Virus record (IMG/VR): IMGVR_UViG_3300008116_000097
Location: 1-48,782 of that record
Source: a virus
Length of the DNA: 48,782 bases
Strand: one strand, 5' to 3'
In this document: positions 7,983-25,269 of the stretch, piece by piece
Position numbering within the stretch: the stretch's first letter is position 1
Layout: every line of letters begins with the position of its first letter
Position numbers and translations under genes: made by a program
Notes under the pieces: model-generated
What the model saw: only the letters and a program-made list of their open reading frames with translations
What the model was told of the DNA's origin: nothing
Databases searched by the model: none

Positions 7983-8765
7983 GTGCTGTACCGTTTCCAC
8001 CAATATATTAACGAGAAAAAAGTTTCTGAATTTTATCACGATGAACTAAATCCTAAGTTTTGGACTAAAAAAACTAACAAGGATGGTTCTATCGATTGGG
8101 TATTCGATAAGAATATCAGAAAAAAGCTATTAAAAATAGCGGATGATTTCTATTCCAAATTTGAAGATACGATCGGCAAGCCCAAAATCGTAGATATTCA
8201 ATTGACAGGCTCCCTGTCAAATTATAACTATACAGATTATTCGGACCTCGACGTCCATATTTTGGTTGATTTCGATAAGATCGATGCACCTAAAAAGGTT
8301 TTGAAATCTGCGATTGACGGAATCAGATTTATTTGGAATCTCCGCCACGATGTCAAATTGAGAGGTCACGAGGTAGAAACATACATGCAAGATGAGGATG
8401 AACCTCATACAGCATCTGGCCTTTACTCGTTAATGGACGATGAGTGGATAGTAAAGCCACAATTCGATCCGCCAACAGTTGATCCTGCAGACGTTCAAAC
8501 CAAGTATGAAGGTATTGCTTCGGACATCGATAAGTTAGAATCTAAACTTGCCAAAGATAAATTACCCGCCGACCAGGCCAAACTTCTTTTCAGCCGAGCT
8601 AATAAGCTAAAGGATAAAATCATGAAGATGAGAAAGGAAGGATTGAGCGAGGAAGGTGAGTTCTCCGTAGGTAATCTTGCTTTCAAGAAGCTTCGTAATA
8701 AGGGATATATAGAAAAATTGATCGATACGATCAGTTTGGCTTACGACAAAATTTACTCTGAATAA
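7983..8765 (+). CDS. Nucleotidyltransferase-fold protein with head-targeting peptide
   Basis: 260 residues starting at GTG. The N-terminus MLYRFHQYINE-K fits the phage's putative capsid-targeting peptide with cleavage after Glu11. The body carries a Pol-beta-type nucleotidyltransferase signature, IQLTGSLSNYNYTDYSDLDV, with GS at 76-77 and the catalytic-type Asp pair at 88 and 90, followed by HILVD and a later HEVETY. FYHDELNPKFW upstream is, as I recall, shared by an uncharacterised myovirus family. Such enzymes transfer a nucleotide to RNA, protein or small molecules. Placement beside head genes and the peptide suggest it is packaged and acts on the new host early; substrate unknown. TAATG overlap joins it to the next gene. 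Confidence 0.75.
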   Translation: MLYRFHQYINEKKVSEFYHDELNPKFWTKKTNKDGSIDWVFDKNIRKKLLKIADDFYSKFEDTIGKPKIVDIQLTGSLSNYNYTDYSDLDVHILVDFDKIDAPKKVLKSAIDGIRFIWNLRHDVKLRGHEVETYMQDEDEPHTASGLYSLMDDEWIVKPQFDPPTVDPADVQTKYEGIASDIDKLESKLAKDKLPADQAKLLFSRANKLKDKIMKMRKEGLSEEGEFSVGNLAFKKLRNKGYIEKLIDTISLAYDKIYSE

Positions 8766-11353
8766 TGATATTACTTCTACCTAATAAAGGCAGTTTAGGC
8801 GCTGGCCAAACGATGCCAATGATTCAAGTCCCTATCAGTGCGATTGAAGGCGGGGAATTTGTCGAATTAAATGATTTCCAGTGGTGGGCAAAGACCTCAG
8901 ACTGGCAGAATTGGTTGAAATCCAATCCTAGAACTTGGCAGGCTGAATCGGAAGATCATGGATATTTGAAAGATCTTTTTGATTATCCTCACCATAGCGA
9001 AATAAAAAGACTCAAGACTTTTGAAGATTTTGCAGCAGACTTTGATCTGTTAAACGAGGATGAGGAGGGCGATCCACAAATGGGAGAGGCATACCTTAAA
9101 TTTCTCAAAGCAAAAGATAATTTAGAGAAATCCGGAAAAATCGACGGACAGATTGAATTCGAAAACGTTCAGACCGGAGAGGATAATGCTTGGTTTCTTT
9201 CATTCTCTGATGAGGGAGGAACTGATTCAACTGAATCTGAAATGGCTTATAAGATCAAGAAGAAGTATTCTACAGGAGGTCAATTTGCTATTTACGATTT
9301 AACTGAAATCCAGCCACTCAATAAAACTCTTGATGACAAAAGTACATTCAAGGAGATATTCGAAAAGTCAGCAGATTTCTTTGGTAAAGCCTTACCGTAT
9401 GCCCTAATGGGTCTTTCTGGTTTTGTCGCATTGAAAGCAGCTGGAGGATTATTCAGATTGGTTGGTCTTTCTTCAAGTGTCAAAAATTTTGCTGGCAAAA
9501 GAAGAGCAGCTAAATCATTAGCTAATGCTAAATCCATTTTAACCAAAGGTGGAAAATGGGCATTTAGAGGTTTGAAGAACACCGGTAAATTACTGGCTGG
9601 CGTTACTCAGGGATTGGGTAAGGGATTCAAATGGGCTAAGCAAGGATATAAATTTTCAAGAAATGCAGCTAAGACCCGCCCAACCGCGGTTATGAACAGC
9701 ATTAAAGCTTTTGGAAGGGGTTTCTTAAAAACCGCTTCGAAGGCATTACCAAAAACTGCAGTCGAGGCAATACCAGTGGTTGGATGGATCCTAGCAATAG
9801 GTGATGTTGCACAGCAAACATATAACTGGTTCAGCGACAATCAAGCACCAAGATTTGCAGACTTTGATGGATCAGCGATAGCTCATGATTCTTTTGAGCC
9901 TGGAAAAATCCCAGCTGGAGAAATCATAACTATCTGCTGGACACAGGAAGGAAAATTGAGTAGTGGATGGGAAGGATTCCTACCATTCACAGCAGACGAC
10001 ACCAGAACAACTATGGATATTGCCAAGATTGGCGATTTTTCAAATTCATCTCTGTTTATTCTACTCAATGTCGGATCAAAAGGTATGTCGGAAGCTCTTG
10101 CCAAGAATGATATCACATTTATCGTATTTGAGAAATCTTCTAAATTCGAACACGGGTTTACAGACAATGACGATCTACAGTTCAGAATAGTAGGCATTCA
10201 AAATGCTTCAGAACACGCTGAAGCAATGTATTTCCACGGAATCTGTCCATGGGCAACTTTCATGGACGCATACGATACAGCTTCTCCACAATTGGTTGAA
10301 TTAGACCCAAGTGCTCCAGATAACTTTGAATTCAATTTTCAGCAAGGCGCTTCTAGAGTCAATGTTTCCGGAGAATTGGTTGATTCAAGCTTTGTGAATC
10401 TTTCTAATCCAGAATCGGGATTGAATAAGATGGTTGAAAAGGGAACGGAGAAAGAAATTGACGAGGAACCTGAAGTAGCTCCTGTTAAGTCAGCGAGCAC
10501 CGAAGAAACACCTCAGCAAGCTCCAGCCGATAAGCCCGCACAGAGTGAACCGCAAAAATCTCCAGAATTACCTAAGCCGGAAGAAGTATCACAGCCGAGC
10601 GAAAGCCGCGTTCTAAATTTCAGTTCATTCATGAGAATTTACGAATCAGCAGAACTAATAGTTGAAGCTGATGCTGAAGAGGCAGGGGAAGAAATTGATT
10701 TCAACTCTGTGAATGTTGCAATTTATAGAGTTAACTCGATAGAGAATGCAGATAGGAATTCTTCTACTGCTCCTCCAAAATTTGATTACTTTGTCGTAGA
10801 TGCAACACCTGAAGTATGGGGCGCACAGGAAGGAGACCCAATCGACGTTGCTTCGGATGAATATGACATGGAGGATACCCGTAAAGGATTTGCTCCTGTA
10901 ATCGGTAGACACGAAAGCGAATGGCTATCGATTGAACCAATCGAAGCGGCAGGCGAGGATGATGCAGCGTTAGATTACACAACTGAGCCTGATGAGGAAA
11001 TAGCTTCTTCTTACATAGAAGTAGCTGATGATCAGGTAAAGCTGAAAATCAAAGACGATATCCAGAAAATGAAGGATACAGCAGTCGGAGGGTTTAATCT
11101 TTTGAAAGAATTGACCACCGAGGATGAACGCAAACAATTGGGCATCGACAAATGGGAAGAAGTTGATGTGATCAAGGTTAAAGGAGATCCTTTAAAAGGC
11201 GAGGAAAGATCCATTAAGATGAGAGAGAAAAAATCTTTCGGTGGATTCATTCCCAACGGAGCAAAGAAAACATTCACGCCAAAAGATGGTGAATTATACT
11301 ACCTAGCTACCAGTATCTTCAACAGAATGAAGAACAAGGTTAGGGTAAGATAA
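8765..11353 (+). CDS. Large presumptive virion protein with amphipathic core, 862 aa
   Basis: Not recognised as a family. Visible architecture: acidic N-terminus; a targeting-peptide-like stretch at 80-98 ending in LLNE; a hydrophobic helix region near 207-235 (ALPYALMGLSGFVALKAAGG); a long basic, Gly/Lys-rich amphipathic stretch to about 330; a second hydrophobic helix AIPVVGWILAIGD near 334-348; a beta-rich middle; a Pro/Glu linker near 555-612; then a second targeting-like stretch VLNFSSFMRIYE at 616-627 and IVE at 632-634. The two stretches look like prohead-protease sites. Between portal and protease genes, this fits an internal or ejection protein able to contact membranes. That role is inference. 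Confidence 0.65.
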   Translation: MILLLPNKGSLGAGQTMPMIQVPISAIEGGEFVELNDFQWWAKTSDWQNWLKSNPRTWQAESEDHGYLKDLFDYPHHSEIKRLKTFEDFAADFDLLNEDEEGDPQMGEAYLKFLKAKDNLEKSGKIDGQIEFENVQTGEDNAWFLSFSDEGGTDSTESEMAYKIKKKYSTGGQFAIYDLTEIQPLNKTLDDKSTFKEIFEKSADFFGKALPYALMGLSGFVALKAAGGLFRLVGLSSSVKNFAGKRRAAKSLANAKSILTKGGKWAFRGLKNTGKLLAGVTQGLGKGFKWAKQGYKFSRNAAKTRPTAVMNSIKAFGRGFLKTASKALPKTAVEAIPVVGWILAIGDVAQQTYNWFSDNQAPRFADFDGSAIAHDSFEPGKIPAGEIITICWTQEGKLSSGWEGFLPFTADDTRTTMDIAKIGDFSNSSLFILLNVGSKGMSEALAKNDITFIVFEKSSKFEHGFTDNDDLQFRIVGIQNASEHAEAMYFHGICPWATFMDAYDTASPQLVELDPSAPDNFEFNFQQGASRVNVSGELVDSSFVNLSNPESGLNKMVEKGTEKEIDEEPEVAPVKSASTEETPQQAPADKPAQSEPQKSPELPKPEEVSQPSESRVLNFSSFMRIYESAELIVEADAEEAGEEIDFNSVNVAIYRVNSIENADRNSSTAPPKFDYFVVDATPEVWGAQEGDPIDVASDEYDMEDTRKGFAPVIGRHESEWLSIEPIEAAGEDDAALDYTTEPDEEIASSYIEVADDQVKLKIKDDIQKMKDTAVGGFNLLKELTTEDERKQLGIDKWEEVDVIKVKGDPLKGEERSIKMREKKSFGGFIPNGAKKTFTPKDGELYYLATSIFNRMKNKVRVR

Positions 11354-11357: not shown

Positions 11358-11373
11358 TCTTTCACGTGAAAGA
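11358..11373. repeat. 16-base perfect palindrome, possible operator
   Basis: TCTTTCACGTGAAAGA is a perfect palindrome centred on CACGTG. Its right end overlaps the first two bases of the promoter-like box at 11372. It could be a binding site for a dimeric regulator of the capsid operon, or a short hairpin ending the upstream transcript. Confidence 0.6.
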
Positions 11374-11380
11374 TATATAA
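11372..11380 (+). promoter_or_regulatory. Candidate late promoter box (GATATATAA)
   Basis: The box begins 32 bases before the GTG start of the protease-scaffold gene, the same spacing as at other units. It would drive the protease-scaffold and major capsid genes, which end at the terminator at 15112-15141. Confidence 0.5.
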
Positions 11381-11403: not shown

Positions 11404-13368
11404 GTGAAAAATCAGGACTTAAACGAAAATTTGGTTTTCATCCTCGAGAGACAGGAAGCTGTCTTAGAAGCGAAAACCAAGGATGATGAGGTAGTTCTAG
11501 AAGGTGTTGCTGCTGTTTTCGGCGAAGAAAACAACAACGGACGAATCTACGACGAAACCGAATACCTTCCGCATTTGGAATACCTTAAAGAAAAAATCGC
11601 TCAGAATAGATTGGTTGGTGAACTTGACCATCCTGAGAAATTTGATGTTTCTTTGAAAAACATTTCTCACTTGATCCAAGAGCTTGATTACGATAAAAGC
11701 AAGAGATGCTTGAAGATCAAAGTAAAATTGTTGGATACCCCAGCTGGTAAAATTGCTAAAAGTTTAGTTGAAGCAGGAATTCCTATTTCAATTTCTTCAA
11801 GAGCAGCTGGTAATGTTGGTCCAGACAAGAAGGTTCAGATCAAGAAAATTTTCACTTATGATCTAGTTGCTGATCCTGGTTTCAAGAATGCACAACTCTA
11901 TAGAGTTAATGAAAGCGTAGATTTCAGCTTCGAAGAATTCAAAAATTACAAAAAAAATAGCGTTGTAGCATCGCTTTCGTTAATAAATGAGAGCTTAGGA
12001 TTAAAAAATGATTCCTTGACTCAGATATATAGCGTATCGAACAACGAAGAGTTCGAAAAATTAATCGGTATAGACAAAATAAAACAAGCACAAATGGATA
12101 ATAACAAAGAATTCGTTACTGCAGACGAGCTTAACAAATACTCAGTGTATTTGAAAGAGCAGATGAAAGCAATGAAGGAAGAGATCAATTCATTGAAATC
12201 TGCAGCTGATGTTTCTGCTACACTCGAAGTTTCTGAATCAGAATCAGGTTCTGAAGCAGACGCAAGAATCGCTAAATTAGAAAAGTATTGCGCCTACTTG
12301 GGAGAGAATTTAGAAAATTCGATCCGTTACGGAGAATACGTTGCTAAGAATTTGGATGATTCAATTTCTTACTCAAAGTATTTGGCTAAGAGTTTAGATG
12401 AGAGCATTAGTTATTCTAAGTACTTGGCTGAGAATCTTGATAAGACGATCGGCTACAGCGAATATGTTGCTGAAAGCGTAGACAAGAACATCGAATACAG
12501 CAAGTATTTGGCTGAGAAATTAGATACTAACATTTCTTACTCTGAGTACATTGCAGAAAATTTGGATAAGAATATTTCTTATTCTGAGTACATTGCAGAA
12601 AACGTAGAAAATAACATTGCTTACTCTGAGCATCTTTCTGAAAAGATCAATCAAGGTATCTCTTACTCTGAGTACATTGCAGAAAACCTCGAAAAAGGTA
12701 TCTCTTATTCAGAATACGTTGCAGAGAATGTTAACAAAGGTCTTGCTTACTCTGAGTACATCGCAGAGAAATTGGATTCTTCAATCCGTTACACCGAGTA
12801 CATCGCTGAGTCTGTAGACACCAAAGAAACAGCTCCTGCTTTGAATGAGCAGGCTAAATCTGAAGCCGAATTAGCTTCTGCATCAGATTTGAATGAGTCT
12901 GGATTTGCTGGTGATTATGCAGATTTAGGAACTAAAATTGACAAACTTATTGAATCAGTTAATACACAGAAGACTGAAAGTTTAATAAAGGAAGCTGAAC
13001 AAAAAGTTTCCAAGGCCACAACACAGAAGGCTATCAACGAATCTCAAGATGCTGATGTGAACGAAGGCGAAACCCCTAAATCAGGTTTCAAATTTATTGA
13101 CGAAATGCCTGAAGAATTCCGTCCCGCATGGGAAGGTTTGAATGAGTCTCAACAGCACTCAATCAAAGCACAGGCTGCTCTTCGTAAACTTGACACCGAC
13201 TACCAGATCAGAAATTTCTGGTCTACACGTCAATTGGGTGTTGAACCTATCGGTTTACAGAAGTTGAATGAGAACGCAGAAATCCCAACTGCTGCAAATT
13301 CAAAAGAAATCTACGGTAATGGTTACTTGGATTTCTTAAGTAAAGAGTTGGAGAAACGCTTCAAATAA
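11404..13368 (+). CDS. 21: Prohead protease fused to scaffold (gp21-gp22-like fusion)
   Basis: 654 residues from a GTG start. Residues about 20-170 are the gp21-type serine protease: NNNGRIYDE, VGELDHPEKF with catalytic-type His76 (T4: GELNHP), and ISISSRAAGNV with catalytic Ser131/132 (T4: VSSRGLGS). T4 gp21 ends near here at 212 residues. This protein continues with a coiled-coil-like region, twelve 14-residue repeats (306-473, consensus NISYSEYIAENLDK) and a C-terminal domain (about 560-654) ending LDFLSKELEKRFK, which recalls the T4 gp22 scaffold end 'VASRF'. It thus seems to be protease and scaffold in one chain; no separate gp22 gene exists before gp23. Most repeats hold an [L/I/V]-x-E site, so the scaffold would be cut to small peptides. 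Confidence 0.85.
   Translation: MKNQDLNENLVFILERQEAVLEAKTKDDEVVLEGVAAVFGEENNNGRIYDETEYLPHLEYLKEKIAQNRLVGELDHPEKFDVSLKNISHLIQELDYDKSKRCLKIKVKLLDTPAGKIAKSLVEAGIPISISSRAAGNVGPDKKVQIKKIFTYDLVADPGFKNAQLYRVNESVDFSFEEFKNYKKNSVVASLSLINESLGLKNDSLTQIYSVSNNEEFEKLIGIDKIKQAQMDNNKEFVTADELNKYSVYLKEQMKAMKEEINSLKSAADVSATLEVSESESGSEADARIAKLEKYCAYLGENLENSIRYGEYVAKNLDDSISYSKYLAKSLDESISYSKYLAENLDKTIGYSEYVAESVDKNIEYSKYLAEKLDTNISYSEYIAENLDKNISYSEYIAENVENNIAYSEHLSEKINQGISYSEYIAENLEKGISYSEYVAENVNKGLAYSEYIAEKLDSSIRYTEYIAESVDTKETAPALNEQAKSEAELASASDLNESGFAGDYADLGTKIDKLIESVNTQKTESLIKEAEQKVSKATTQKAINESQDADVNEGETPKSGFKFIDEMPEEFRPAWEGLNESQQHSIKAQAALRKLDTDYQIRNFWSTRQLGVEPIGLQKLNENAEIPTAANSKEIYGNGYLDFLSKELEKRFK
12277..12822 (+). 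repeat. 42-base coding repeats (14-aa units) in the scaffold region
   Basis: One degenerate unit (12277-12318) and twelve clear units (12319-12822) of 42 bases, encoding 14 residues with consensus NISYSEYIAENLDK. Fourteen residues is two heptads, expected for a regular helical rod. At least nine units carry LAE, IAE or VAE, the kind of site cut by T4 prohead protease. Confidence 0.9.
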
Positions 13369-13386: not shown

Positions 13387-15090
13387 ATGAAACTCATTAA
13401 CGAATCTGAGATTTATGATACCTGGGCGCCTATTTTGGAATCAAAAACCGGTATCAGCTCTCCCGAGAAAAAAGAATGGTTGGCTAAATACTGCCACTAC
13501 CACTCATTAAACGAATCTGCCGGTGCATACAACACTTTGGGTGTATTGAACGGTATGGGTCCTGTTGCTCCTCCTTTGTACCCTGGTATGAGCAGCTTCA
13601 GCGGTTCAAACGCTAACGCTGGTTTCTACAACAGTGCAAACTTTGGATCTGGTGACAAATTCCCTAGCTTATTGCCTTTGGCTATTCAGGTTGCTGCTAA
13701 AACCGTTGGTTTTGACATCGTTCCTGTAATTCCTATGTCAGGACCTACTGGCGTATTGTCTTACTTGGATTATGTTTACGCTGGTGGTAAATTGAACCCT
13801 AGCCAAATCAGCGCATCTTCAACTTCTGCTGAAGCTTTGGCTGCTGCTCCTTCAATGATTAAAGTTGAATTGTCTTCTGGCGCTTCTTCTTTGACCGTTG
13901 GTACTACTTACTACTTGACTTCAGCTACTTCAGCTGCTGCTTACATCACTACTGCTTTCGTTGGTTACTCACGTATCGATGGCTTCGCTATCTTCCGTAT
14001 TACCGACATGACAACAGGTGAAACAGTTGCTTCTACAGTTGCTTCAGGTACTAAAGTTGGTACTTCAATCGACACTACAACTGGTGGTGGTACTGCTGCT
14101 GGAACTGCACAATTGGTTAAAACTTTGGAAGATCACATTCAAGGTTTCTCTGGTGCTGGTTTCAACAACAACCAAAACTGGCAAGGTCCTTACGTAGATG
14201 GTACTAAGACCTACAACCCAATGTTGAGAGGTACTGCAGAATCTACCTACTACAATTCACTTGGTTTGAACACCTTCACCAAATTCGTTGAAGCTGACAC
14301 TTTCCAAGTTGCTGCATCTGTAACTACTGAGCAAATTCAAGATTTGAATAAGCAATTCGGTATCGACGTGATCAGCATGATCGAGAACGCTTTGGTTAAC
14401 GAAGTATCTCAAGCCATCAACAAGCACATCTTGGCTCGTGCATTTGCCTTAGGTTGGTCTAACTGCTTCCAGTTCAACGCTACCGAAGGTCAAAACATGA
14501 ACTTGAACTTGGTTATCGGTGGTACTGCAGGTTCTTACACTATTCCTTCATACGTAGGTAAAGCAGATGCTGCTTTGACTATGACTGGAGTAGCTGGTCC
14601 TTCTTCAGGAACTTACGAGAACTTGTCTACTCTTCAGCGTCGTTTGTTCTCACGTATTTTGGCTGCTGCCAACGTCGTAGCAAACCGCGGACGTCGTGGA
14701 CCTGCTAACTTCATCGTTACTAACGCTAACATCGCTAGTGCTTTGCAAGATATCAGCCAGTTCACTTTCGCTCCTTTCACTAACACCTTGACTCAAAACA
14801 ACGGTACTTTGTATCCTGTAGGTTCATTGGCTGGTATGACTGTATATGTTGACCAGAACATGGCTTTCAACGATACTCGCGTATTGGTTGGACGTAAAGG
14901 TGGTGATGACGAACCAGGTTTGAAATTCATGCCTTACATGATGGCTGAGTCAATTCAGACTATCTCAGAAGGTACTATGTCTCCTAAAATCGCAGTTAAG
15001 TCTCGCTATGCTTTGGTAGAAGCTGGACACTTGCCTGAGACCATGTATTTCTGCTTCAACGTTAACATCCCTGCTGGTGGTATTAACTAA
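13387..15090 (+). CDS. 23: Major capsid protein, gp23-like
   Basis: 567 residues (T4 gp23: 521). The N-terminal ESEIYDTWAPILESK corresponds to the T4 start 'AELLNKWKPLLEG'. SLNE-SAGAYNTLG gives a predicted prohead-protease cut after Glu43 (T4: after Glu65 in LTE-A). Downstream are NLALPLAIQVAAK-like helix PLAIQVAAKTVGFDIVPVIP and MSGPTGVLSYLDYVYAG, matching 'FDICGVQPMNSPTGQVFALR', then TTEQIQDLNKQFGID and NRGRRGPANFIVTNA, a gp23 P-domain hallmark. Residues about 140-250 are Ser/Thr/Ala/Gly-rich and may be the insertion domain. Arg is mostly CGT/CGC and Leu mostly TTG, unlike the AGA-rich neighbours, as expected for a very highly expressed gene. A strong terminator follows. Confidence 0.95.
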   Translation: MKLINESEIYDTWAPILESKTGISSPEKKEWLAKYCHYHSLNESAGAYNTLGVLNGMGPVAPPLYPGMSSFSGSNANAGFYNSANFGSGDKFPSLLPLAIQVAAKTVGFDIVPVIPMSGPTGVLSYLDYVYAGGKLNPSQISASSTSAEALAAAPSMIKVELSSGASSLTVGTTYYLTSATSAAAYITTAFVGYSRIDGFAIFRITDMTTGETVASTVASGTKVGTSIDTTTGGGTAAGTAQLVKTLEDHIQGFSGAGFNNNQNWQGPYVDGTKTYNPMLRGTAESTYYNSLGLNTFTKFVEADTFQVAASVTTEQIQDLNKQFGIDVISMIENALVNEVSQAINKHILARAFALGWSNCFQFNATEGQNMNLNLVIGGTAGSYTIPSYVGKADAALTMTGVAGPSSGTYENLSTLQRRLFSRILAAANVVANRGRRGPANFIVTNANIASALQDISQFTFAPFTNTLTQNNGTLYPVGSLAGMTVYVDQNMAFNDTRVLVGRKGGDDEPGLKFMPYMMAESIQTISEGTMSPKIAVKSRYALVEAGHLPETMYFCFNVNIPAGGIN

Positions 15091-15182: not shown

Positions 15183-15192
15183 GATATATAAG
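15183..15192 (+). promoter_or_regulatory. Candidate late promoter box (GATATATAAG)
   Basis: Located between the capsid terminator and the next start codon, 31 bases before the ATG at 15214. It is the only promoter-like sequence that could serve the five genes 15214-19514. Confidence 0.5.
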
Positions 15193-15213: not shown

Positions 15214-15924
15214 ATGAAGAAAATATTGGAGTACCGCGAATACCTTGACAATAAAGAATTATTGGAGGGTTTCAGCCAAGATTCACCTGTTCTTGCTGAA
15301 TTTTCCGAATTCATTTCGGAATCAATTAACGAATCTTCGTTTGTTCGTGGTGGTGACCAAATTCTAAACAACCTATCAAAAGCACTCTTTGGATCTCTTT
15401 CTAAAGTTTCGATGATCGATCAGACGGTTGATAAGATTTATCAGTTGAAAGCAAAACTAATAGATCAAGAGTATAATATGATCAAGGAGTTTGATAAGAT
15501 CCAGGATAAGGTTAAAGAGCTCAGAAGCAGCGGTGCTAGTCCTGAAATGGTCAGATCAGTACGCAAGCAGAGAGACGCAAAGCAAAATGAATTTGAGGCT
15601 TTCGAAAAAAGGACCAATCTTGAGATCGAAAGAGGAATGAAACTTCTCGGAGAAATCATTGGGAATAATAAAAGAAGGCAAGAATATTCAGATTCAGTAA
15701 TCTCGCAAGCAGAAGTTAATCTGGCTGATTATGAATATAAGAAAGCAAAAAAAGAAGGTAAGGCAAGCGAGGCAGAACTGAAACAATTACTCAGTAACTT
15801 AGAAGACAAAAAAGAGGAATTGAAAGACGAAACCCAAGATTTAAAAGATCTTGCTGCAAAACAGCAAAATCCTAAGCCTAAAGTTCCTGTCATGAAAGTA
15901 AGCAAGCCAATAAAGACAGCATGA
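15214..15924 (+). CDS. Presumptive internal head protein, coiled coil, 236 aa
   Basis: The N-terminal 40 residues hold several targeting/cleavage-like stretches (EYREYLDNKELLE-G, FSEFISESINE-S); the best predicted prohead-protease cut is after Glu40. The rest is highly charged and helical, with long Lys/Glu coiled-coil segments from about 65 to 205, and a short Pro/Lys-rich tail (NPKPKVPVMKVSKPIK). No enzyme motif is seen. First gene after the capsid terminator and promoter box, in an ATGA overlap with the next gene. It resembles T4 internal or core proteins in character, not in sequence. Confidence 0.65.
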   Translation: MKKILEYREYLDNKELLEGFSQDSPVLAEFSEFISESINESSFVRGGDQILNNLSKALFGSLSKVSMIDQTVDKIYQLKAKLIDQEYNMIKEFDKIQDKVKELRSSGASPEMVRSVRKQRDAKQNEFEAFEKRTNLEIERGMKLLGEIIGNNKRRQEYSDSVISQAEVNLADYEYKKAKKEGKASEAELKQLLSNLEDKKEELKDETQDLKDLAAKQQNPKPKVPVMKVSKPIKTA

Positions 15925-16799
15925 AAAATTTAGTAAGTTTCTCAGATTATAACCTGAACGAATCGGTTCTATCGGATTTATACAATTCGGTGAAGAGACT
16001 ATTCGGAGGTCAAAAAAGCAAACTTGATTCTCTCGCATCTGAATACGAGGAGGAAGAAATGAGCTATGCTAAAGAATGGAATGATATCGTAACGGATATT
16101 GACGAGCTTCAATTAAAAGAAACCGAGCCCGATTTAACTCCGGGTGAAAAAAGAGCTTATACACGACAGATTTCAAACAAAGAAAAATTGTTGAAGACTC
16201 TGGAGGTTAAAAGAGATCGTGAGATCAATTTTATCAATAAAAAAGCTCAGGAGATCGCCGGTAGCGATCCTAAAATCTCAGCGTATTGGGAAGTTAAAAA
16301 AGCTGGAATTGAATCAAAGATAGCTAAAAAACTTTTCGATTATGGTAAAAAGGTATCGAGCAAAACGTATACGCAAGGATTGAAATCCAGATACGAGAAT
16401 GCAGCTCGCAATGCACGCAGTGCAGAAAGAACATTCAAGAATTACTTCAGCCAAATTGACACTGGCGGAAAGAAAAGTTCAGAAAAGACTGTTAAGGAAG
16501 AAGATATCAAGACAAGAGAACTGATCGACATGCGTTTGAGTGATTTTCCTGACGCAATCAAGAAATTTCCTCAGTCTAAGATTAGAGAAATCCTTAGGGA
16601 TCTAAAAAAAGAAAGAAACGAGACACTTCTTGCTTCTGATCTTGAAAGAGATGAGATTTACAAAAAATCACAAAAGATCTCCGATAATAAAAAAGCTAAA
16701 GAATTCACAGAAGAGGAATTTAGAAAAATCACAAAAAAGTACCGTGATAAAATTTCTGATCTGCGATCTAAAATAACAATAGCTCAGCGATATGATTAA
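15921..16799 (+). CDS. Presumptive internal head protein, helical, 292 aa
   Basis: The N-terminus MKNLVSFSDYNLNE-S is one of the clearest examples of this phage's head-targeting peptide, with a predicted cut after Glu14. The mature protein would be rich in Lys, Glu and Arg and predicted almost entirely helical, with coiled-coil stretches around 35-70 and 200-290. No catalytic motif or membrane segment is visible. It shares ATGA with the preceding gene and overlaps the next by eight bases, so the three are probably co-translated. It may be a core protein or a DNA-associated cargo protein; which cannot be told from sequence. Confidence 0.65.
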   Translation: MKNLVSFSDYNLNESVLSDLYNSVKRLFGGQKSKLDSLASEYEEEEMSYAKEWNDIVTDIDELQLKETEPDLTPGEKRAYTRQISNKEKLLKTLEVKRDREINFINKKAQEIAGSDPKISAYWEVKKAGIESKIAKKLFDYGKKVSSKTYTQGLKSRYENAARNARSAERTFKNYFSQIDTGGKKSSEKTVKEEDIKTRELIDMRLSDFPDAIKKFPQSKIREILRDLKKERNETLLASDLERDEIYKKSQKISDNKKAKEFTEEEFRKITKKYRDKISDLRSKITIAQRYD

Positions 16800-17046
16800 A
16801 AGATATAATCAATTTTTGAATGAGGCTTCAAACGAAACCGAAATCAAAACTTTAGAGGTAGACATCTCCAAATTGAGAGATCAGATTGCCACAGCTAAAG
16901 ATGCGGTTAAGAATGCTGCGAATGACGCAGCCAGAAGAACAGCTCAGATCAATGCGTATAATGTTGAATCGACCGTTCTAACCCAGATAGCTGCTAAGTT
17001 AAAAGAACTTGCCCGTTTGATGGCATTACCAACTACAACTACATAA
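16792..17046 (+). CDS. Small presumptive internal head protein, 84 aa
   Basis: The N-terminus MIKRYNQFLNE-A is nearly superimposable on the T4 internal-protein targeting peptide MKTYQEFIAE-A, with a predicted cut after Glu11. The remaining about 70 residues form one long amphipathic helix rich in Ala, Lys and Asp (LRDQIATAKDAVKNAANDAA), ending in LPTTTT. T4 IPI-IPIII are also small, helical and packaged by the hundred; some act on host defences after injection. Here no function can be read. It overlaps the upstream gene by eight bases. Confidence 0.65.
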   Translation: MIKRYNQFLNEASNETEIKTLEVDISKLRDQIATAKDAVKNAANDAARRTAQINAYNVESTVLTQIAAKLKELARLMALPTTTT

Positions 17047-18251: not shown

Positions 18252-19514
18252 ATGAGCAAAATTTATAACATAGCGGAGTATAATTCTCTGATCTTGGAGA
18301 ACAAAATCAGTCTCAATAGATCTAATCTATCTGATGATCTCAAGTCATTCTTGGGAGCGGGTGAAACATCGAACGAGACTCCTTCAGAGGAAGATAAAAG
18401 TTCAAATAGTGTAAGCGAAGCTCTTTCCAAAGTATTGAGAAAGAAATGGAAGATGCAGGTTGAGTCTGAGGATTTCCATCGCAACGGGGATGGTCAATTG
18501 AAATCATCATACACCGAGGATTTCTTGCAAGCTTGGAAAAAAGCTGCAGACGAGGGAGAACCCGGAGAAGATAAGTTTTTTTACTACGATGGCGGGATTT
18601 ACGATATGACCAATCCTGACACCAGTTTGAAAATTCCAAAGAACTATCTCAAATGGGCGGATGTCCGCGGAATCGAATCGATGAATGAGGAAGACAGTGT
18701 AGATTTCATGAGAAATTATATGTCTTCGTTCGAAACATTCGGTGGAGTAGATGCAAAATCTAGAAAGGTTTACGCCAATAAACTTTCAGAGGTACTCGAG
18801 AACATGGCCAACGAATTAAATGAAGATGAGGACACTCCTATTTTTACTGCTTACGACGGGGTAATGAAATTGAAGAAGAACGACGAGATCCCATTCGTTG
18901 GATACGATGATCTGAAAGGTCCAATCACTAAATCTATCAAAAAGATTGTCGATGAGTGCATGACCAATGACGATTACCAGAATAGAGACGTTGCCTTCTT
19001 AAATAATGCGATCTGTATGATTGCTCCGTGCGTTACCCATGATGGTGAAAATTTTGTACCTGCTTACAAATACGTTCTGGACAAAGTTTTGACACCCGAG
19101 GTAATGGAAAATAGCAATCTGTATCTCTTGAAAGAAAATTCTAACGATCCTATGATGTATTTCACATCAGATAATGGAGTTGATCTTTTCAATCCAAACA
19201 CACCAAACGCAAAGCCGGAGAATATCTTCGATCTTTCAAAAATATCTGGCAATCTCCCAGGTATGAAGAAAATACACCCATCTTTGCACTTCTTACATGG
19301 TGTTGATCCTGATAACTATAAAGGAGCAGTAAAAACCCAAGATAGCGGTAAGTTCAAAACCCGCACTTCTAACATCTTCTTAAGAAATCTAGTGAATTCT
19401 TCTAGGGTGTTGAATAAGGTTAATACCCACTGTAAAAGAATTAATGCTGTAGAATCTGAGGACATTCCTCAAAAGGTAACTGGCAACAAGTGTATCATCA
19501 TAGATATTATCTAA
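18252..19514 (+). CDS. Presumptive head-associated protein, 420 aa, unknown
   Basis: Starts at the ATG at 18252, one base after the previous stop codon; a longer in-frame extension back to 18183 would overlap the upstream gene by about 70 bases and is less likely. The N-terminus MSKIYNIAEYNSLILE-N resembles the targeting peptide family with a weaker ending. The middle contains EDFHRNGDGQL and a mixed alpha/beta region; the C-terminus is hydrophobic (KCIIIDII). No known domain recognised. Last gene of the internal-protein operon; a strong terminator follows 20 bases later. Confidence 0.6.
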   Translation: MSKIYNIAEYNSLILENKISLNRSNLSDDLKSFLGAGETSNETPSEEDKSSNSVSEALSKVLRKKWKMQVESEDFHRNGDGQLKSSYTEDFLQAWKKAADEGEPGEDKFFYYDGGIYDMTNPDTSLKIPKNYLKWADVRGIESMNEEDSVDFMRNYMSSFETFGGVDAKSRKVYANKLSEVLENMANELNEDEDTPIFTAYDGVMKLKKNDEIPFVGYDDLKGPITKSIKKIVDECMTNDDYQNRDVAFLNNAICMIAPCVTHDGENFVPAYKYVLDKVLTPEVMENSNLYLLKENSNDPMMYFTSDNGVDLFNPNTPNAKPENIFDLSKISGNLPGMKKIHPSLHFLHGVDPDNYKGAVKTQDSGKFKTRTSNIFLRNLVNSSRVLNKVNTHCKRINAVESEDIPQKVTGNKCIIIDII

Positions 19515-20177: not shown

Positions 20178-21558
20178 TTTAGATAATTCTGAGAAAAGAA
20201 TAATGTCAATCTCTCACAGAGGGACTGAGCATCTAACCATCGAAAGCAACGGGGTTTATCTAACCCATCACCGACTACCTATCCAAACCTATGACGGAGA
20301 CTCTTGGCAGCAGCCAATCGAAATACAAGAAAATGTTTATTTACTTTTTAATGGAGAAATTTTTAACTATGATACGAGCCTTTATTCATCAGACACAGAA
20401 TATTTGGTTGATCTCTTCAGAGGATGGAGGGGTGATAATATCCAACTATTTACCGCCAATTTTTTACCTCATATCCTGACATGGGACGGATTCTGGTCTA
20501 TAGCAATAATTGATACAAACACTAAAGATATTATTGCTTTCACAGATCCTCTCGGGAAGAAACAATTATACAGGAACAAACAAGGAGAACTTTCCTCTGA
20601 GATAAAAGGTGTTAGAACAGCAGATTCCAAACTGAATCAACACTTCATCAGCACCGTTCTAAAATTCGGCTATAATACGGATAGCAACACAACTTGGGAA
20701 AATGTTGAACGACTCAAGCCGAACACCATCTATCATTGGAACCTTGCAGCAGCCGACTTTGTTACCACGTTCAGCAAATACTACAACTTCAATCACCCGA
20801 TTTCTGATTTAGCCGGATCTGATTACGAAGCTCACATGGAATGGCTTTGGACTGCTATGTTCAGAAGCGTTTCTAGAAGAGCATTAGTTTCTAAGTATCC
20901 AACCTCTCTGTTGGTTAGTGGAGGATTGGATTCTGCTATTATTGCTGGAATCATGCACCACCAGAATATTAATAGCCAGTGGTTCAGTATTGAAAACGGA
21001 GAGACCGAGTATGTCAAGCTGCTGGCTGAAAAATTCGACGCCAATCCTTTTTATCTTACCTATTCTATGGAAGACGATCATCGTTTCATTTATGATAAAT
21101 GGAATGAATCGCCTATAGATCTTGGTTCTGTAATCCCTCAATTTTACCTATTTGATTCAATTAAAAAGAACAGTAATTTCCGGGTAGTAATTTCCGGCGA
21201 TGGTTCTGATGAATTATTTGGAGGATATCGAAGGATTGATGAATACGATTCCCAGTCATCGGATATTTTTGATGAGCTAAGTTACTACCATCTTCCTAGA
21301 TTGGATAAGATGTCTATGGCTCACACAATAGAGCTCAGAAATCCATTCCTCGACCACGAAATAATCAGATTTGCATTGAATCTTCCTTTTGAATGGAGGA
21401 AGAATAAAAAGATACTAAAAGACACATTCGGTCCAATTCTTCCAGCTGAAATAGTGGAAAGGAAGAAAGAGGCTTTGAAAAATCCGCAAATCAAGCAGGA
21501 TGCAATCCAGTATAGATACAAAGTTGTAGGCGATTTCATTGACCGCAGGGATATATAG
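20158..21558 (+). CDS. asnB: Asparagine synthetase B-like, glutamine-hydrolysing amidotransferase
   Basis: 466 residues. The N-terminal class II glutaminase domain begins MCGI, with nucleophile Cys2 exposed after Met removal, and has SHRGTEHL, THHRLPIQ and LFNGEIFNYD. The C-terminal PP-loop synthetase domain has LVSGGLDSAI near 251-260 (ATP binding), GDGSDELFGGY near 348-358 and IELRNPFLDHE. Both active sites look intact. It would make asparagine from aspartate, or, like some family members, amidate another carboxylate such as a peptidoglycan residue. E. coli AsnB has 554 residues, so this copy is compact. Its start codon lies inside the kinase gene. It is a metabolic gene set among virion genes, a likely acquired cassette. 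Confidence 0.9.
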   Translation: MCGILISLDNSEKRIMSISHRGTEHLTIESNGVYLTHHRLPIQTYDGDSWQQPIEIQENVYLLFNGEIFNYDTSLYSSDTEYLVDLFRGWRGDNIQLFTANFLPHILTWDGFWSIAIIDTNTKDIIAFTDPLGKKQLYRNKQGELSSEIKGVRTADSKLNQHFISTVLKFGYNTDSNTTWENVERLKPNTIYHWNLAAADFVTTFSKYYNFNHPISDLAGSDYEAHMEWLWTAMFRSVSRRALVSKYPTSLLVSGGLDSAIIAGIMHHQNINSQWFSIENGETEYVKLLAEKFDANPFYLTYSMEDDHRFIYDKWNESPIDLGSVIPQFYLFDSIKKNSNFRVVISGDGSDELFGGYRRIDEYDSQSSDIFDELSYYHLPRLDKMSMAHTIELRNPFLDHEIIRFALNLPFEWRKNKKILKDTFGPILPAEIVERKKEALKNPQIKQDAIQYRYKVVGDFIDRRDI

Positions 21559-22217: not shown

Positions 22218-22225
22218 GAAAAACA

Positions 22226-22576
22226 ATGAATATAACAGATGTTTCTAAAAGAGAGGTTCTAGATTTCAAACAGTTCCTCGGAAAAGTGCACGATGATAAG
22301 TACAAGCCATTAGCTCCAGAAAATCAACCAGATTCGAGCGATAGAACAGGCTTGCACCGCATCCAGCGTCAGCCACAGTACGATTATGTTGGATATGCAA
22401 ATGCAGCATTCAATAATACCTCTGGCATTGATGTACCAGGTTACAATTCTCATGGAGATCGTCAGTACGTTAACGGTATCGGTGGTGATATTGGAATCAA
22501 TGGATCTGTGTTCAATATGGATACCAGCGAATCTGTGAAAGAATCTCGCATCTCTAGTTTCAACGATTTCGAATAA
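22226..22576 (+). CDS. Hypothetical protein, 116 aa
   Basis: Short protein with low helical content, rich in Asn, Asp, Gly and Tyr in the middle (NNTSGIDVPGYNSHGDRQYV), suggesting an extended or loop-rich structure. Near the N-terminus is VLDFKQFLGKVHDD, resembling the core of the head-targeting motif, and the protein ends RISSFNDFE, again with the F-x-x-F pattern. No catalytic motif. It begins eight bases after the previous stop and belongs to the same transcription unit as its neighbours. Function unknown. Confidence 0.55.
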   Translation: MNITDVSKREVLDFKQFLGKVHDDKYKPLAPENQPDSSDRTGLHRIQRQPQYDYVGYANAAFNNTSGIDVPGYNSHGDRQYVNGIGGDIGINGSVFNMDTSESVKESRISSFNDFE

Positions 22577-22584
22577 TCATAATC

Positions 22585-23076
22585 ATGCAGAATCTAAGAT
22601 CCTTTTCAGACTTTTCAATTAACGAAAGTAAGTCTGATCCTAAATCAAACCCAAGTTTTAGAATTTGGTCTCAGTGGAGATCATGGATCAATATGTCTGC
22701 AAATGAAATTGAGAAATTCCTAAATTCAGATCAGGGCAAGGAAGCTGGACTATCCAGAAAAGAGGCAAAGAAAGAAGGCGGGATTAAGACTGGAAGAGAT
22801 TCAGCCCGTGCTTTAGTTAGAATGATACCTAACGGTGGAAGTTGGAGATCTGCTTTGGATAATTGGAGTCCTAACGATTGGGAGTGGGCTAGAAGACAAG
22901 TTTCTTTTAACTCAAGAATGAGTGGGATGAAGCCCACTACGAGAGACCCGCATTTTGAAAAAAATGGTGAATACACCGATTGGATGAAATCCATGCTTAT
23001 ATGGGGACATGATCCCAGAAAGCCAAAGAGACAGGTTGCTTCCGAACCAACAAACCTTAAACCAGAATACAAATAA
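22585..23076 (+). CDS. Presumptive internal head protein with Trp-rich phage domain, 163 aa
   Basis: MQNLRSFSDFSINE-S at the N-terminus is a textbook member of the head-targeting peptide family here (predicted cut after Glu14). The mature part (about 28-155) has a dense pattern WSQWRSWINMS, GKEAGLSRKEA, KTGRDSARALVRM, DWEWARRQVSF and MLIWGHDPRKP, which I recall from uncharacterised proteins of many phages. It is basic and Trp-rich, which would suit nucleic-acid binding, but that is a guess. Last gene before the bidirectional terminator. Confidence 0.65.
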   Translation: MQNLRSFSDFSINESKSDPKSNPSFRIWSQWRSWINMSANEIEKFLNSDQGKEAGLSRKEAKKEGGIKTGRDSARALVRMIPNGGSWRSALDNWSPNDWEWARRQVSFNSRMSGMKPTTRDPHFEKNGEYTDWMKSMLIWGHDPRKPKRQVASEPTNLKPEYK

Positions 23077-23106
23077 AAAATCCCCTCGAAAGAGGGGATT
23101 TTTTTT
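23075..23106. terminator. Bidirectional terminator between convergent genes
   Basis: AAAAAATCCCCTC at 23075-23087 pairs with GAGGGGATTTTTT at 23092-23104 around a GAAA loop. T runs occur on both strands, so it can end the + strand unit and the single - strand gene whose stop codon lies within it. Confidence 0.9.
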
Positions 23107-23821
23107 AGAATAGGTTTATTGCTTTTTCCTTTGCTATTTTAACTAATTCTTCGTTAGAATCTATATCTGCATCAATCTCGGCGATAAAGACTCTTGGCGT
23201 ATATAATTTTGATTTGATCCTGTCTAGGACCTCGTGGATTATAAATTCATAATCCGAAGAGAATTTATAATCATATTCCATCTGTACCTTCTTCATGATT
23301 ACACCTGACAGTGAATGACCATCCTGGTTGATTATGCTTTCTTTCATGAGGTAAGCGTGGATACGATTTGTTTTCTTAGATCTGATCAATAGAAGAGAAA
23401 ATGAATTACCTGAATTTTTTTGATCTACTGCTGGGACAAATTCCTTCACTTCTACTAACTTTTCTAAATTTTTCAAGATATTAAGCATTTCTTCTCCGAA
23501 TCCATACAAAATATCTTCAGAATCAGCTACGATACGATCTACCAAAGCCAATTTTTGATCTAAATCCTCTTGCTCAAAAAATTTTGTTTTTGTGTTTTCT
23601 TCTTTTTTAGTTATTTTTTCAATCCTTTCAGGAGATAAGCTTCTGTTCGTCCTGAAATTTTTCAAGTCATCAAGGCGGAGAAAAATCTCTCTCGCACTTT
23701 TTCTTGTACTTCTTTCATTCAGTTCTATTCTTAACTCTTGAAGAAAATCCATCAGCACATAATACTTATGTTCCGGATCGAGCGGTTCCTGTAGAAACCA
23801 ATACGGGCTTAATCTTTTCAT
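23105..23821 (-). CDS. Hypothetical protein, only minus-strand gene, 238 aa
   Basis: Starts MKRLSPYWFLQEPLDPEHKY and is mainly helical and charged, with a coiled-coil-like stretch (ERIEKITKKEENTKTKFFEQ) near 65-84, then a beta-containing region SFSLLLIRSKKTNRIHAYL and RVFIAEIDADID near the end. No known motif. It is convergent with the head-protein unit and shares its terminator; its start faces a 106-base divergent region containing AATATATAG on the minus strand about 45 bases upstream of the start. Being the only reversed gene in nearly 49 kb, it may be expressed at a different time from its neighbours. Confidence 0.75.
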   Translation of the reverse strand: MKRLSPYWFLQEPLDPEHKYYVLMDFLQELRIELNERSTRKSAREIFLRLDDLKNFRTNRSLSPERIEKITKKEENTKTKFFEQEDLDQKLALVDRIVADSEDILYGFGEEMLNILKNLEKLVEVKEFVPAVDQKNSGNSFSLLLIRSKKTNRIHAYLMKESIINQDGHSLSGVIMKKVQMEYDYKFSSDYEFIIHEVLDRIKSKLYTPRVFIAEIDADIDSNEELVKIAKEKAINLF

Positions 23822-23903
23822 TTACTCAGACAAATTATTTTTAAACCCCAGTAGTAAATCATACTATATATTTATGGAAATTATTCATAGGCAACGATAC
23901 TCG

Positions 23904-23912
23904 GATATATAG
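23904..23912 (+). promoter_or_regulatory. Candidate late promoter box (GATATATAG)
   Basis: Begins 24 bases before the ATG at 23928, in the divergent region between the minus-strand gene and the next + strand unit. A second partial copy, GATATAT, lies just before the ATG. Confidence 0.45.
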
Positions 23913-23927
23913 AAAAAAATAAGATAT

Positions 23928-24356
23928 ATGGCAAGAATATATGATTTCAATAATTTCTCCAGTAGCTCGGGCTCGAGAGAAGATTATGAATTCAGATACG
24001 AGTTGGACTTTACTGATACCACCGTGGTGAATCCTCCAGAGGAATTAAAAAATCTCGACACTGCTTCGGTTAATGTCACTTATAAATCTAGTGTAAAAAT
24101 TGATAAAAACGGTATCTATGATATCGATTTTTCTATCTCTGAGATGGAGATAAGATTCGAAATGGATGATTATCCCAATGAATCAATTATTGAAGAGATC
24201 GAGCTTAAACCCGGTGTTAACATACCCGAAGATCAGATCAAGATCACCAAGGGAGATTATCTAATACCGACATATCCATCATCGATTACGATCGATATGA
24301 AAAAGGCAAACGATTCTGGAAAATTTTATATCGAAATCACATTTGGTAAGGACTAA
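23928..24356 (+). CDS. Hypothetical beta-rich protein, 142 aa
   Basis: The N-terminus MARIYDFNNFSSSSGS has the hydrophobic-FxxF start of the head-targeting peptides but no NE ending. The rest is strongly alternating polar/hydrophobic, typical of a beta sandwich (YEFRYELDFTDTTVV, NVTYKSSVKID, IYDIDFSISEMEIRF, KFYIEITFG). No Cys, no catalytic motif. First gene of the long unit that runs into the tail genes; it is separated from the next start by one base. It could be a small virion decoration or baseplate accessory protein; function unknown. Confidence 0.6.
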   Translation: MARIYDFNNFSSSSGSREDYEFRYELDFTDTTVVNPPEELKNLDTASVNVTYKSSVKIDKNGIYDIDFSISEMEIRFEMDDYPNESIIEEIELKPGVNIPEDQIKITKGDYLIPTYPSSITIDMKKANDSGKFYIEITFGKD

Positions 24357-24357
24357 A

Positions 24358-25269
24358 ATGAATTTACTCAGATACGATCAATATAGAATAAATGAAGGTT
24401 TCAGCTGGGAAGACGAAGAAATCCTCCTGCCTTGTTTAACCGGAGAGGAGCAGCCAGACTTTTTCCCTTGCTTACACCTGGTCACTTCGGGTGAGAAAGA
24501 TCATTTGAATTGCTGGAATAAAAAGGGAGAGATGGTTCTCGATTTCCCAATAGCACGGTCTTCTTACGAAATAGCCACAGACAACCCGGGAAATTTACAA
24601 ATGCTGAAAATGAATCCATGGAGTACATGGATGAGAAATGAAGCTAATAGGGAAAACATTTTAGATCTGAAAGAGATTCTAGATGACACCGAAGAAGAGG
24701 ATGATTTTAATCCAACCGACGAGGTTTTGCTATTTTTAGATCTTTGCGGACTGAATTCACTGAAAACTAATTCTCACCAGAAATTAGAAAACGGAATCCA
24801 CCTAATTGGATTGGATAACGGAATGGAGGCTGAGGTTGACTACGACGAAGAAAATAGGCTCATGAAAAAGTTAGATATTTTTTCTGCACCTAATGAAAAA
24901 TACCCTGCAATCAGTATTTGCATCAAGCCGAAGTTAAAATGGGGTTTCAGAATTGATGACATGAATTACGAGATTAATGATGTCAAGAAGATCTCTGATC
25001 GCCAAAATTTGATTAGCTCATTAATCACTGCTGCTTTGGGCAAAACTCAGGATGATGAATCGATTGGGAATATCAGATCGTATTACGAGGAGCAACTCGC
25101 ATCTCTGAAAAAACTTGTTAATTTACCAAATTTCCATAGATCAAATCTCGATCAAAAAGACGAAGAGATTTATAGATTCAAAAATCTTGTCTCTAAATAC
25201 ATAGGAGAAAAAACTGCTGACGAGCTTTACAAGAAAGCAAAATCTGAAATATACCAACATTATAAATAA
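24358..25269 (+). CDS. Presumptive internal head protein, acidic, 303 aa
   Basis: The ATG at 24358 was chosen because it produces MNLLRYDQYRINE-G, a clear head-targeting peptide with a predicted cut after Glu13; an alternative GTG at 24343 would bury the motif. The mature chain is acidic, with DDTEEEDDF near 120-130, and contains a Cys/Pro-rich start (LPCLTGEEQPDFFPCLHL). The C-terminal third is helical (YYEEQLASLKKLVNL, IGEKTADELYKKAKSEIY). No enzyme family recognised. It is followed after one base by another gene of the same unit. Confidence 0.6.
   Translation: MNLLRYDQYRINEGFSWEDEEILLPCLTGEEQPDFFPCLHLVTSGEKDHLNCWNKKGEMVLDFPIARSSYEIATDNPGNLQMLKMNPWSTWMRNEANRENILDLKEILDDTEEEDDFNPTDEVLLFLDLCGLNSLKTNSHQKLENGIHLIGLDNGMEAEVDYDEENRLMKKLDIFSAPNEKYPAISICIKPKLKWGFRIDDMNYEINDVKKISDRQNLISSLITAALGKTQDDESIGNIRSYYEEQLASLKKLVNLPNFHRSNLDQKDEEIYRFKNLVSKYIGEKTADELYKKAKSEIYQHYK

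Follow-up and report, generated by a model that had tools for sequence, protein, structure and literature searches.

Several genes in a stretch of viral DNA from IMG/VR record IMGVR_UViG_3300008116_000097 (positions 1 to 48,782; hereafter the window) begin with similar short peptides, which raises the question of what such a peptide, here called the tag, does for the proteins that carry it. The tag comprises a hydrophobic residue and a pair of aromatic residues ([FY]xx[FY]), commonly followed by [LI]xE and a small residue, and the initial annotation had read it as a modular, T4-like code for head targeting and cleavage. We consider it likely, with good confidence, that the tag belongs to an expanded T4-type capsid-targeting system, which loads ~40–50 proteins per genome.

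The window (48.8 kb) is a fragment of a T4-like huge phage and includes the C-terminal portion of a portal protein (phrog_213). Judged by the capsid protein, its closest phage records are LR756500 (462 kb, 45%) and the Prevotella Lak phages (43–45%), with more distant matches among phages of Flavobacterium, Sphingomonas, Tenacibaculum, and Chryseobacterium. A 116-kb viral contig (G008, also numbered L002), whose capsid protein is 100% identical, begins to overlap the window at about base 4650 and continues beyond it. Two relatives are more complete, G001 (430 kb) and G002 (373 kb). Genes were called with a simple caller written for the analysis, in which the tag motif plays no part. A tag profile of eight columns was trained on the N-termini of G001, G002, and G008, so that counts in these records are in-sample; LR756500 was absent from the training and serves as the out-of-sample test. 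Of 38,886 internal control windows, 73 score at or above the profile threshold of 8. Matches to window genes were counted in 73 of 80 related loci (those longer than 3 kb).

Distribution of the tag

In the three training records, 113 of 1373 proteins match the profile at the N-terminus (50 of 692 in G001, 45 of 549 in G002, and 18 of 132 in G008), compared with 2.6 expected from their internal windows. Out of sample, 37 of the 696 LR756500 proteins are tagged against 2.0 expected, and in the LR756500 clade, for which 54 of the 80 loci were used, 58 of 957 genes reach the threshold. Once the first 25 residues are removed, the 150 tagged proteins (113 + 37) fall into 110 families, and in a broader tagged set of 162 proteins, 88 of 117 clusters are single proteins. 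Pairs of the form [FYW]xx[FYW] peak at residue 7 (75 of 1373 proteins vs. 1.2% elsewhere). A motif-free search for over-represented gapped triplets in residues 2–19 ranked hydrophobic-x-x-aromatic-x-x-aromatic first in G001 (62 vs. 15.5 expected) and second in LR756500 (63 vs. 18.6 expected), where aromatic-x-x-aromatic-x-x-E ranked first (34 vs. 5.7 expected); both triplets lay outside the top twelve in nine other genomes tested. The profile search over related phages that the initial annotation had proposed thus returned a larger set than was claimed, spread genome-wide.

With the same gene caller, profile matches were few in phiKZ (2, 0.5 expected), PTm1 (1, 0.7 expected), MaF61 (0, 0.5 expected), and PAU (2, 0.9 expected), and small excesses appeared in KVP40 (4, 0.7 expected) and S-PM2 (3, 0.2 expected). 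A general count of tag-like starts gave 3 vs. 1.7 expected in PTm1 and 0 vs. 1.2 expected in MaF61. Lak-C1 was rejected as a tag carrier (5 observed vs. 3.2 expected in 400 of its 540 kb, with TAG read as Gln), and MA9V-1, with three MKxF-type starts by regular expression (regex) and a general count of 3 vs. 2.0, is not claimed as one. A loose motif that is simply common at N-termini would account for the tag by chance, and the pattern is indeed short and degenerate: the regex match at 26939 in the window and the profile match in the G001 DNA ligase are probably chance matches. The excess of 113 over 2.6 and the few matches in phiKZ, PTm1, MaF61, and PAU leave this explanation next to no probability; the counts rule it out for the whole set, although single weak members may still be chance. 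Within the window, the tag regex matches at 6 of 663 positions in the first 13 residues vs. 21 of 14,958 internal positions, and internal matches in genes 17048, 25271, and 36064, as well as an N-terminal match at 41655 (score 9.1, in the tail region), are probably also due to chance.

The six peptides named in the initial annotation (genes 7983, 15214 internally, 15921, 16792, 22585, and 24358, by first position) are all in place and in frame, and the five N-terminal ones have profile scores of 12.8–17.6. The tags and tag-like copies of this part of the window are:

7983–8015, + strand: N-terminal tag MLYRFHQYINE-K of a nucleotidyltransferase-like protein (gene 7983–8765, GTG start)
9008–9058, + strand: internal tag-like copy RLKTFEDFAADFDLLNE in the protein of 862 amino acids (aa) of gene 8765–11353, by profile
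10607–10645, + strand: second internal tag-like copy RVLNFSSFMRIYE in the same 862-aa protein, by profile
15214–15246, + strand: N-terminal tag MKKILEYREYL (gene 15214–15924; score 10.5; 37 of 60 related-locus matches tagged)
15301–15333, + strand: internal tag-like stretch FSEFISESINE-S, residues 30–40 of gene 15214–15924 (score 8.1)
15921–15962, + strand: N-terminal tag MKNLVSFSDYNLNE-S (gene 15921–16799), by profile score
16792–16824, + strand: N-terminal tag MIKRYNQFLNE-A (gene 16792–17046), by profile score
18252–18299, + strand: weak, doubtful N-terminal tag MSKIYNIAEYNSLILE-N (gene 18252–19514; score 10.5)
22547–22573, + strand: C-terminal tag-like copy RISSFNDFE at the very end of gene 22226–22576, preceded by VKE-S
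22585–22626, + strand: N-terminal tag MQNLRSFSDFSINE-S (gene 22585–23076), by profile score
23928–23957, + strand: N-terminal tag MARIYDFNNF, no nearby cut site (gene 23928–24356; score 13.7)
24358–24396, + strand: N-terminal tag MNLLRYDQYRINE-G (gene 24358–25269), by profile score

Members that had been missed include gene 23928, the internal copies in the 862-aa protein (scores 18.1 and 13.5), the C-terminal copies in genes 22226 and 37233 (22547–22573 and 38598–38627), and gene 21576, which is untagged in the window phage and whose matches are tagged in 38 of 44 related loci. With its second tag-like stretch, FSEFISESINE, gene 15214 has two candidate cut sites, and the VKE-S ahead of RISSFNDFE in gene 22226 is a possible C-terminal arrangement of targeting and cleavage. 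A viral-contig scan for relatives of 24358 returned the same phage only. Two looser members had also been listed. Gene 18252 is retained by its score but doubtful, with 1 of 52 matches tagged, whereas 17048 has no N-terminal profile match, and the tag is absent from all 52 of its best matches in related loci; the two genes are related, and their matches in related loci are therefore common to both. The matches of 17048 carry [LIVMF]xE[SAGN] in residues 5–34 in 51 of 52 cases vs. 4 of 52 in residues 61–90, and those of 15921 in 52 of 62 vs. 0 of 62.

Predicted cleavage, promoters, and selection on the peptide

T4 gp21 is reported to cleave after L/I-x-E (PMC9026906, section 9). Within 13 residues past the tag, [ILVMF]xE occurs in 104 of the 150 tagged proteins vs. 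497 of 1861 untagged proteins (profile score < 4; p = 3e-25). This excess is somewhat favoured because the profile seeds had such a site, but the residue following the predicted cut (P1′) was never used in selection. P1′ is A, S, or G at 53 of the 104 sites, compared with a background of 17.5% (p = 8e-15), and at 36 of 72 with one protein per family (p = 3e-10). The shortest, exact T4 spacing is found at 45 of the 104 sites and the rest have extra residues; with such a variable linker, the targeting and cutting parts look separable. A site of the same kind had been claimed for the capsid protein and is present; HSLNE-S lies at residues 39–44 and is identical in G001 and G002:

13387–15090, + strand: major capsid protein (Gp23; Pfam Gp23, 1.2e-40)
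13489–13515, + strand: capsid propeptide end YCHYHSLNE, protease cut predicted before S (LNE-S kept in G001 and G002)

In the upstream regions of G001, G002, and G008, the motif GATATATA, a proposed late promoter element, lies mostly 10–40 nt ahead of gene starts. Besides genes 36064 and 39618, it precedes the following in the window:

7953–7960, + strand: GATATATA, proposed late promoter element before tagged gene 7983 (motif match)
11372–11379, + strand: GATATATA before the protease-scaffold gene (motif match)
15183–15190, + strand: GATATATA before the operon beginning at 15214 (motif match)
21550–21557, + strand: GATATATA before gene 21576 (motif match)
23904–23911, + strand: GATATATA before gene 23928 (motif match)

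The motif is found within 60 nt of 56 of 113 tagged genes vs. 86 of 1260 untagged genes (p = 1e-29), and of 46 of 92 vs. 68 of 1120 when only genes more than 30 kb from the capsid gene are considered. By the nearest upstream operon motif, tagged genes divide into 86 late, 6 early, and 21 with neither, and untagged genes into 272, 294, and 694; structural T4 homologs divide into 10, 1, and 4, and replication or nucleotide homologs into 3, 7, and 32. From the kinds of genes that GATATATA precedes, we infer that the tagged genes are expressed late, with the head genes, and propose that TATATTTG genes are early and GATATATA genes late. Two promoter-like classes can be distinguished, the late-like GATATATA and TATATTTGC (19581 in the window, ahead of 19623). 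The Bacteroidota −7 element is TAnnTTTG; TATATTTGC resembles it, which would fit a Bacteroidota host and early transcription by the host polymerase.

A shared N-terminus often found under one promoter type and at the very start of the gene could also act at the level of the mRNA or of translation initiation, as a leader of late genes in which the peptide is incidental. At shared tag residues, codon identity is 0.498 vs. 0.485 expected from genome usage (0.694 vs. 0.777 in LR756500); synonymous codons thus agree about as genome usage predicts, which indicates that the motif is kept as protein. In addition, F/Y and I/L/V interchange at fixed positions, and copies also occur inside proteins and at C-termini, with tag-like copies in the last 14 residues of 22 of 1868 proteins vs. 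5 of 1868 at the control position (p = 0.0015, uncorrected for relatedness). These 22 proteins represent 17 families, and three members belong to one endolysin-like family. A leader role is thus very improbable, and codon usage disfavours a DNA or translation-leader origin of the motif.

Gene 7983 illustrates conservation of the peptide: an alignment with 36 orthologs has the aromatic pair within the first 16 residues in 36 of 37 rows (the exception is L045), and linker length and letters vary around it. In its AlphaFold2 model, residues 1–11 (MLYRFHQYINE) alone fall below 50 in the predicted local distance difference test (pLDDT), ahead of a folded body (mean pLDDT 85); the structure predictions in this study were built on alignments of 37 and 23 sequences. 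The protein looks like a nucleotidyltransferase, as weakly suggested by a Pfam match to NTP_transf_2 (0.012; palm fold and GS...DxD motif tested), Foldseek hits to ANT enzymes (best E 2.2e-3, low TM-scores), and a VIA Z of ~6 to nucleotidyltransferases across the N-terminal part. The VIA rows for CorA, spectrin, and BAG match the helical C-terminal half only and were treated as common arrangements.

The modular, T4-like targeting and cleavage code of the initial annotation is supported in part: the P1′ residues, the late-promoter association, and the conservation at the protein level, three tests made without the selecting residues, speak for it; gene 17048, being untagged, drops out of it.

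Putative cargo, scaffold repeats, and a proposed loading mechanism

Pfam scans covered 137 (101 + 36) of 157 reference tagged proteins, the remaining 20 having been dropped by eye as spurious-looking, weak, or redundant; five of the 162 tagged proteins had no reference sequence because they crossed piece ends. The PHROG scan covered the 101-member set (A1), in which at most 42 proteins can have a Pfam match (sum over families). Matches in A1 and the 36-member set A2 include adenylate kinase, a RimK-like ATP-grasp ligase, transglycosylase, CHAP and other cell-wall domains, as well as L,D-transpeptidase-like, OmpA-like, polynucleotide kinase 3′-phosphatase, and putative metallopeptidase domains. 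Leucine-rich repeats occur on six tagged proteins of LR756500 (A2). Where domains could be mapped, they begin past the tag: at residue 26 for adenylate kinase, at 23 for a weak match to RimK_N, and at 15–21 for weak P-loop matches. The tag of the adenylate kinase and of the RimK-like ligase extends the N-terminus in front of the domain.

Several observations weigh against head targeting. No [ILVMF]xE lies within 13 residues past the tag in 46 of the 150 tagged proteins, and some tagged proteins are of usually cytoplasmic enzyme types (adenylate kinase, RimK-like ligase). By profile, orthologs of window genes vary in how often they retain the tag (11 of 54 for 7983, 37 of 60 for 15214, 10 of 62 for 15921, and 16 of 25 for 23928; by regex, 34 of 54 for 7983 and 31 of 62 for 15921). 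The operon rule classes 6 of the 113 tagged genes as early-type and leaves 21 with neither motif, and the late-motif link is weak in LR756500 (4 of 37 vs. 24 of 659, p = 0.055). Among eight rearranged control motifs, ATATATAG, which overlaps GATATATAG, precedes 32 of 113 tagged vs. 41 of 1260 untagged genes, and ATGATATA (9 vs. 13) and GAATATAT (7 vs. 16) are also commoner before tagged genes; the remaining five precede 0–3 of the 113. Only 4 of 15 genes with C-terminal copies have the late motif, which makes these copies weaker evidence, and in the endolysin-like family such an end may be natural. Since Lak-C1 (400 of 540 kb), PTm1, and MaF61 have no clear excess, the tag system is not general in these phages, and the literature search returned no virion proteomics of them.

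The missing cut sites, and tagged enzymes with a potential role in replication (adenylate kinase, for instance), would also suit a signal that localises proteins elsewhere in the cell, for example to a replication compartment, the membrane, or a phage chaperone or ribosome factor. Such a signal fails to predict the excess of cut sites with a small P1′, the late-promoter association, and the T4-like spacing, and we regard it as quite improbable. Equal occurrence of the peptide on clearly cytoplasmic enzymes, an objection raised in the initial annotation, was checked with 38 T4 proteins: 82 of 84 named T4 homologs (replication, nucleotide, and virion) are untagged and the other two are doubtful, but this control is weak alone because ~6 tagged homologs would be expected at random (84 × 150/2069). 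The two that score as tagged are UvsX of LR756500 and the DNA ligase of G001, both probably by chance, as the G002 ligase ortholog is untagged.

Head targeting may also be right while the tagged proteins are scaffold or core parts that are broken down in the head instead of being delivered. Genes 15214 and 15921 are matched in 60 and 62 of the 73 loci around the capsid gene, as core components might be, and in T4 the core proteins are degraded inside the head (PMC9026906, section 9). However, a distance of over 30 kb separates 92 of the 113 tagged genes from the capsid gene, the clusters are mostly single proteins (88 of 117), and enzyme and lysin-like domains are present, as accessory cargo would have. 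We judge this alternative unlikely. The 862-aa protein of gene 8765–11353 is perhaps a core or DNA-ejection protein: it lies between the nucleotidyltransferase-like and protease genes, has Gly/Ala-rich hydrophobic stretches, and is matched in 52 loci (median identity 28%); a PHROG search at E 0.01 found nothing. Internal tag-like copies are also present in its orthologs from G001 and G002.

The head-targeting reading gains a possible docking partner in the scaffold:

11404–13368, + strand: gp21-type prohead protease fused to a gp22-like scaffold (Pfam S80, 3e-8, and S77, 1.6e-7; phrog_207, head maturation protease, 3.4e-31)
12271–12816, + strand: ~13 tandem 14-residue scaffold repeats, consensus near ISYSEYIAENLDKN, pattern [FY]xx[FY][ILV]xE

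The repeat units (YSEYIAEN) have the same pattern as the tag, which suggests that the tag mimics one scaffold repeat. Of the occurrences of [FY]xx[FY][ILV]xE beyond residue 20, the scaffold accounts for 11 of 12 among the window's proteins, for 13 of 33 in G001, and for 12 of 22 in G002. By a looser pattern, the scaffold is the protein richest in tag-like units in the window, G008, G001, G002, and LR756500 and ties for first in KVP40 (3 units), and it lies outside the top three in PAU, PTm1, MaF61, MA9V-1, S-PM2, T4, Lak-C1, and phiKZ. At least four scaffold-type units occur in 64 proteins in the 73 related loci, and in the LR756500 clade at least five occur in 43 of 44 loci with a scaffold open reading frame (ORF) longer than 500 aa. 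A short ORF in locus L303 seemed to begin with a scaffold repeat, but it sits at the edge of the locus and was taken as a cut scaffold gene. The agreement between tag and scaffold is suggestive only, as the genomes are few and related, and the hydrophobic residue ahead of the first aromatic is mismatched (−3 in tags, −2 in repeats). AlphaFold2 gives the fusion a mean pLDDT of 49 with largely helical repeats (pLDDT ~30–40), values too low for a docking geometry to be claimed.

Loading may proceed as follows. Tagged proteins, which are observed in association with GATATATA promoters, would be made late alongside the head proteins. Their [FY]xx[FY] pair would dock them to the helical scaffold core, perhaps by imitating the 14-residue YxxY[ILV]AE repeat, and the capsid shell would then close round core and cargo, as in T4. 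The gp21-type protease would cut tags, scaffold, and capsid protein alike past the Glu of [LI]xE, with a small next residue preferred; this preference is statistical and seen in tags, and the cleavage itself is predicted. Freed cargo would remain in the head and enter the next host with the DNA, on the model of T4 internal proteins and Alt. Delivery of cargo to the host is plausible by analogy with T4 internal proteins, which enter the host with the DNA (excerpts of PMC9391042 and PMC7411985). We put forward only tentatively a stronger version, in which the scaffold is a long rod of ~13 units and the tag a detached repeat of it. One imperfect copy, usually N-terminal but at times internal or C-terminal, would then suffice for co-assembly with the rod, and ~40–50 accessory proteins (5–8% of the proteome) would be recruited as effectors for a first strike, delivered along with the DNA.

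Many genes of huge phages lack a known function, and a readable packaging tag would class dozens per genome without homology, as proteins made late, loaded into the head, and probably delivered at infection. In T4, a restriction system is blocked by the internal protein IPI, and in one E. coli strain IPIII is required (excerpts of PMC9391042); given this link to host range, tagged genes are candidate early-acting counter-defence factors. The tags would also supply a natural collection of loading peptides with which proteins could be delivered, and a tag that copies a scaffold repeat is a testable idea of how T4-type targeting works. If true, the detached-repeat proposal would make the tag a general address code that directs accessory proteins of huge phages to the head.

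Comparison with known systems

Among titles and abstract starts, with few subscription papers covered, we found neither a survey of huge Bacteroidota phages for such tags nor a description of their likeness to scaffold repeats, and the excerpts of PMC5694885, PMC7824862, PMC9723584, PMC9391042, and PMC7411985 likewise describe neither. The phiKZ-like phages and SPN3US have many head proteins, propeptides cut after Glu, and ejected cargo (excerpts of PMC5694885), features that are predicted for the window clade as well. In the same excerpts, several of their propeptides exceed 100 residues and only that of gp45 (20 residues) is of T4 length, whereas the predicted ones of the window clade have 10–25 residues and one common motif, for which phiKZ has no comparable excess.

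In PAU, 17 of 301 proteins start with MK[TS][LI]xxL[YF]E, followed by A, S, or G in 14 of the 17. Two of them, gp142 and gp154, carry the record annotation 'internal capsid protein'. Several leucine-based starts in PAU (L142, L168–L178) are followed by a second LNE site (SKLNES, AKLNEA). As in the window clade, a short common N-terminus precedes a predicted cut after Glu and before A/S/G, and many of the genes lie near those for protease and capsid; in contrast, the core is leucine-based without the aromatic pair, and the scaffold is not among the proteins richest in YxxY units. Lineages may thus have their own versions of the tag.

In T4, two ORFs, which we take to be IPII and IPIII, start with MKTYQEFIAE and so have Y4, F7, I8, and E10, the spacing of YNQFLNE and FHQYINE in the window phage. 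In IPIII, whose propeptide has ten residues, the main determinants of targeting are reported to be residues 4 and 7, and those of processing residues 8 and 10 (excerpts of PMC9026906). The T4 capsid-targeting sequence (CTS) of IPI–III and Alt is likewise N-terminal, 10–14 residues long, with an aromatic pair three residues apart, [IL]xE, and a small next residue. Both phages encode a gp21-type protease, a Gp23-type capsid protein, and a gp22-type scaffold, with late expression of the tagged genes inferred. The hypothetical T4 gp61.1 (NC_000866, 18966–19130) starts with MKTFKEFIKE, very like the T4 targeting sequence. Under the tools used for the window phage, T4 yields no profile match and six regex matches, three of them MKT-type starts. 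Unlike in T4, tagged genes of the window clade are scattered genome-wide, 0 to several residues separate the aromatics from the cut site, tag copies also lie inside proteins and at C-termini, and the protease is fused to a scaffold with ~13 tag-like repeats; T4 Alt is also reported to be processed C-terminally (excerpts of PMC9026906). The start of window gene 1055–2002 resembles that of the G001 and G002 homologs of T4 gp44, a likeness of the start only, and this gp44-like gene stands between the portal and protease genes, unlike in T4. The CTS has been suggested to let T4-like phages add various head proteins (excerpts of the review PMC9026906). T4 itself tags a handful of proteins, compared with 37–50 in each of the three largest tagged records here. 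The CTS is already known, and it is the scale of its use that appears far larger in these phages.

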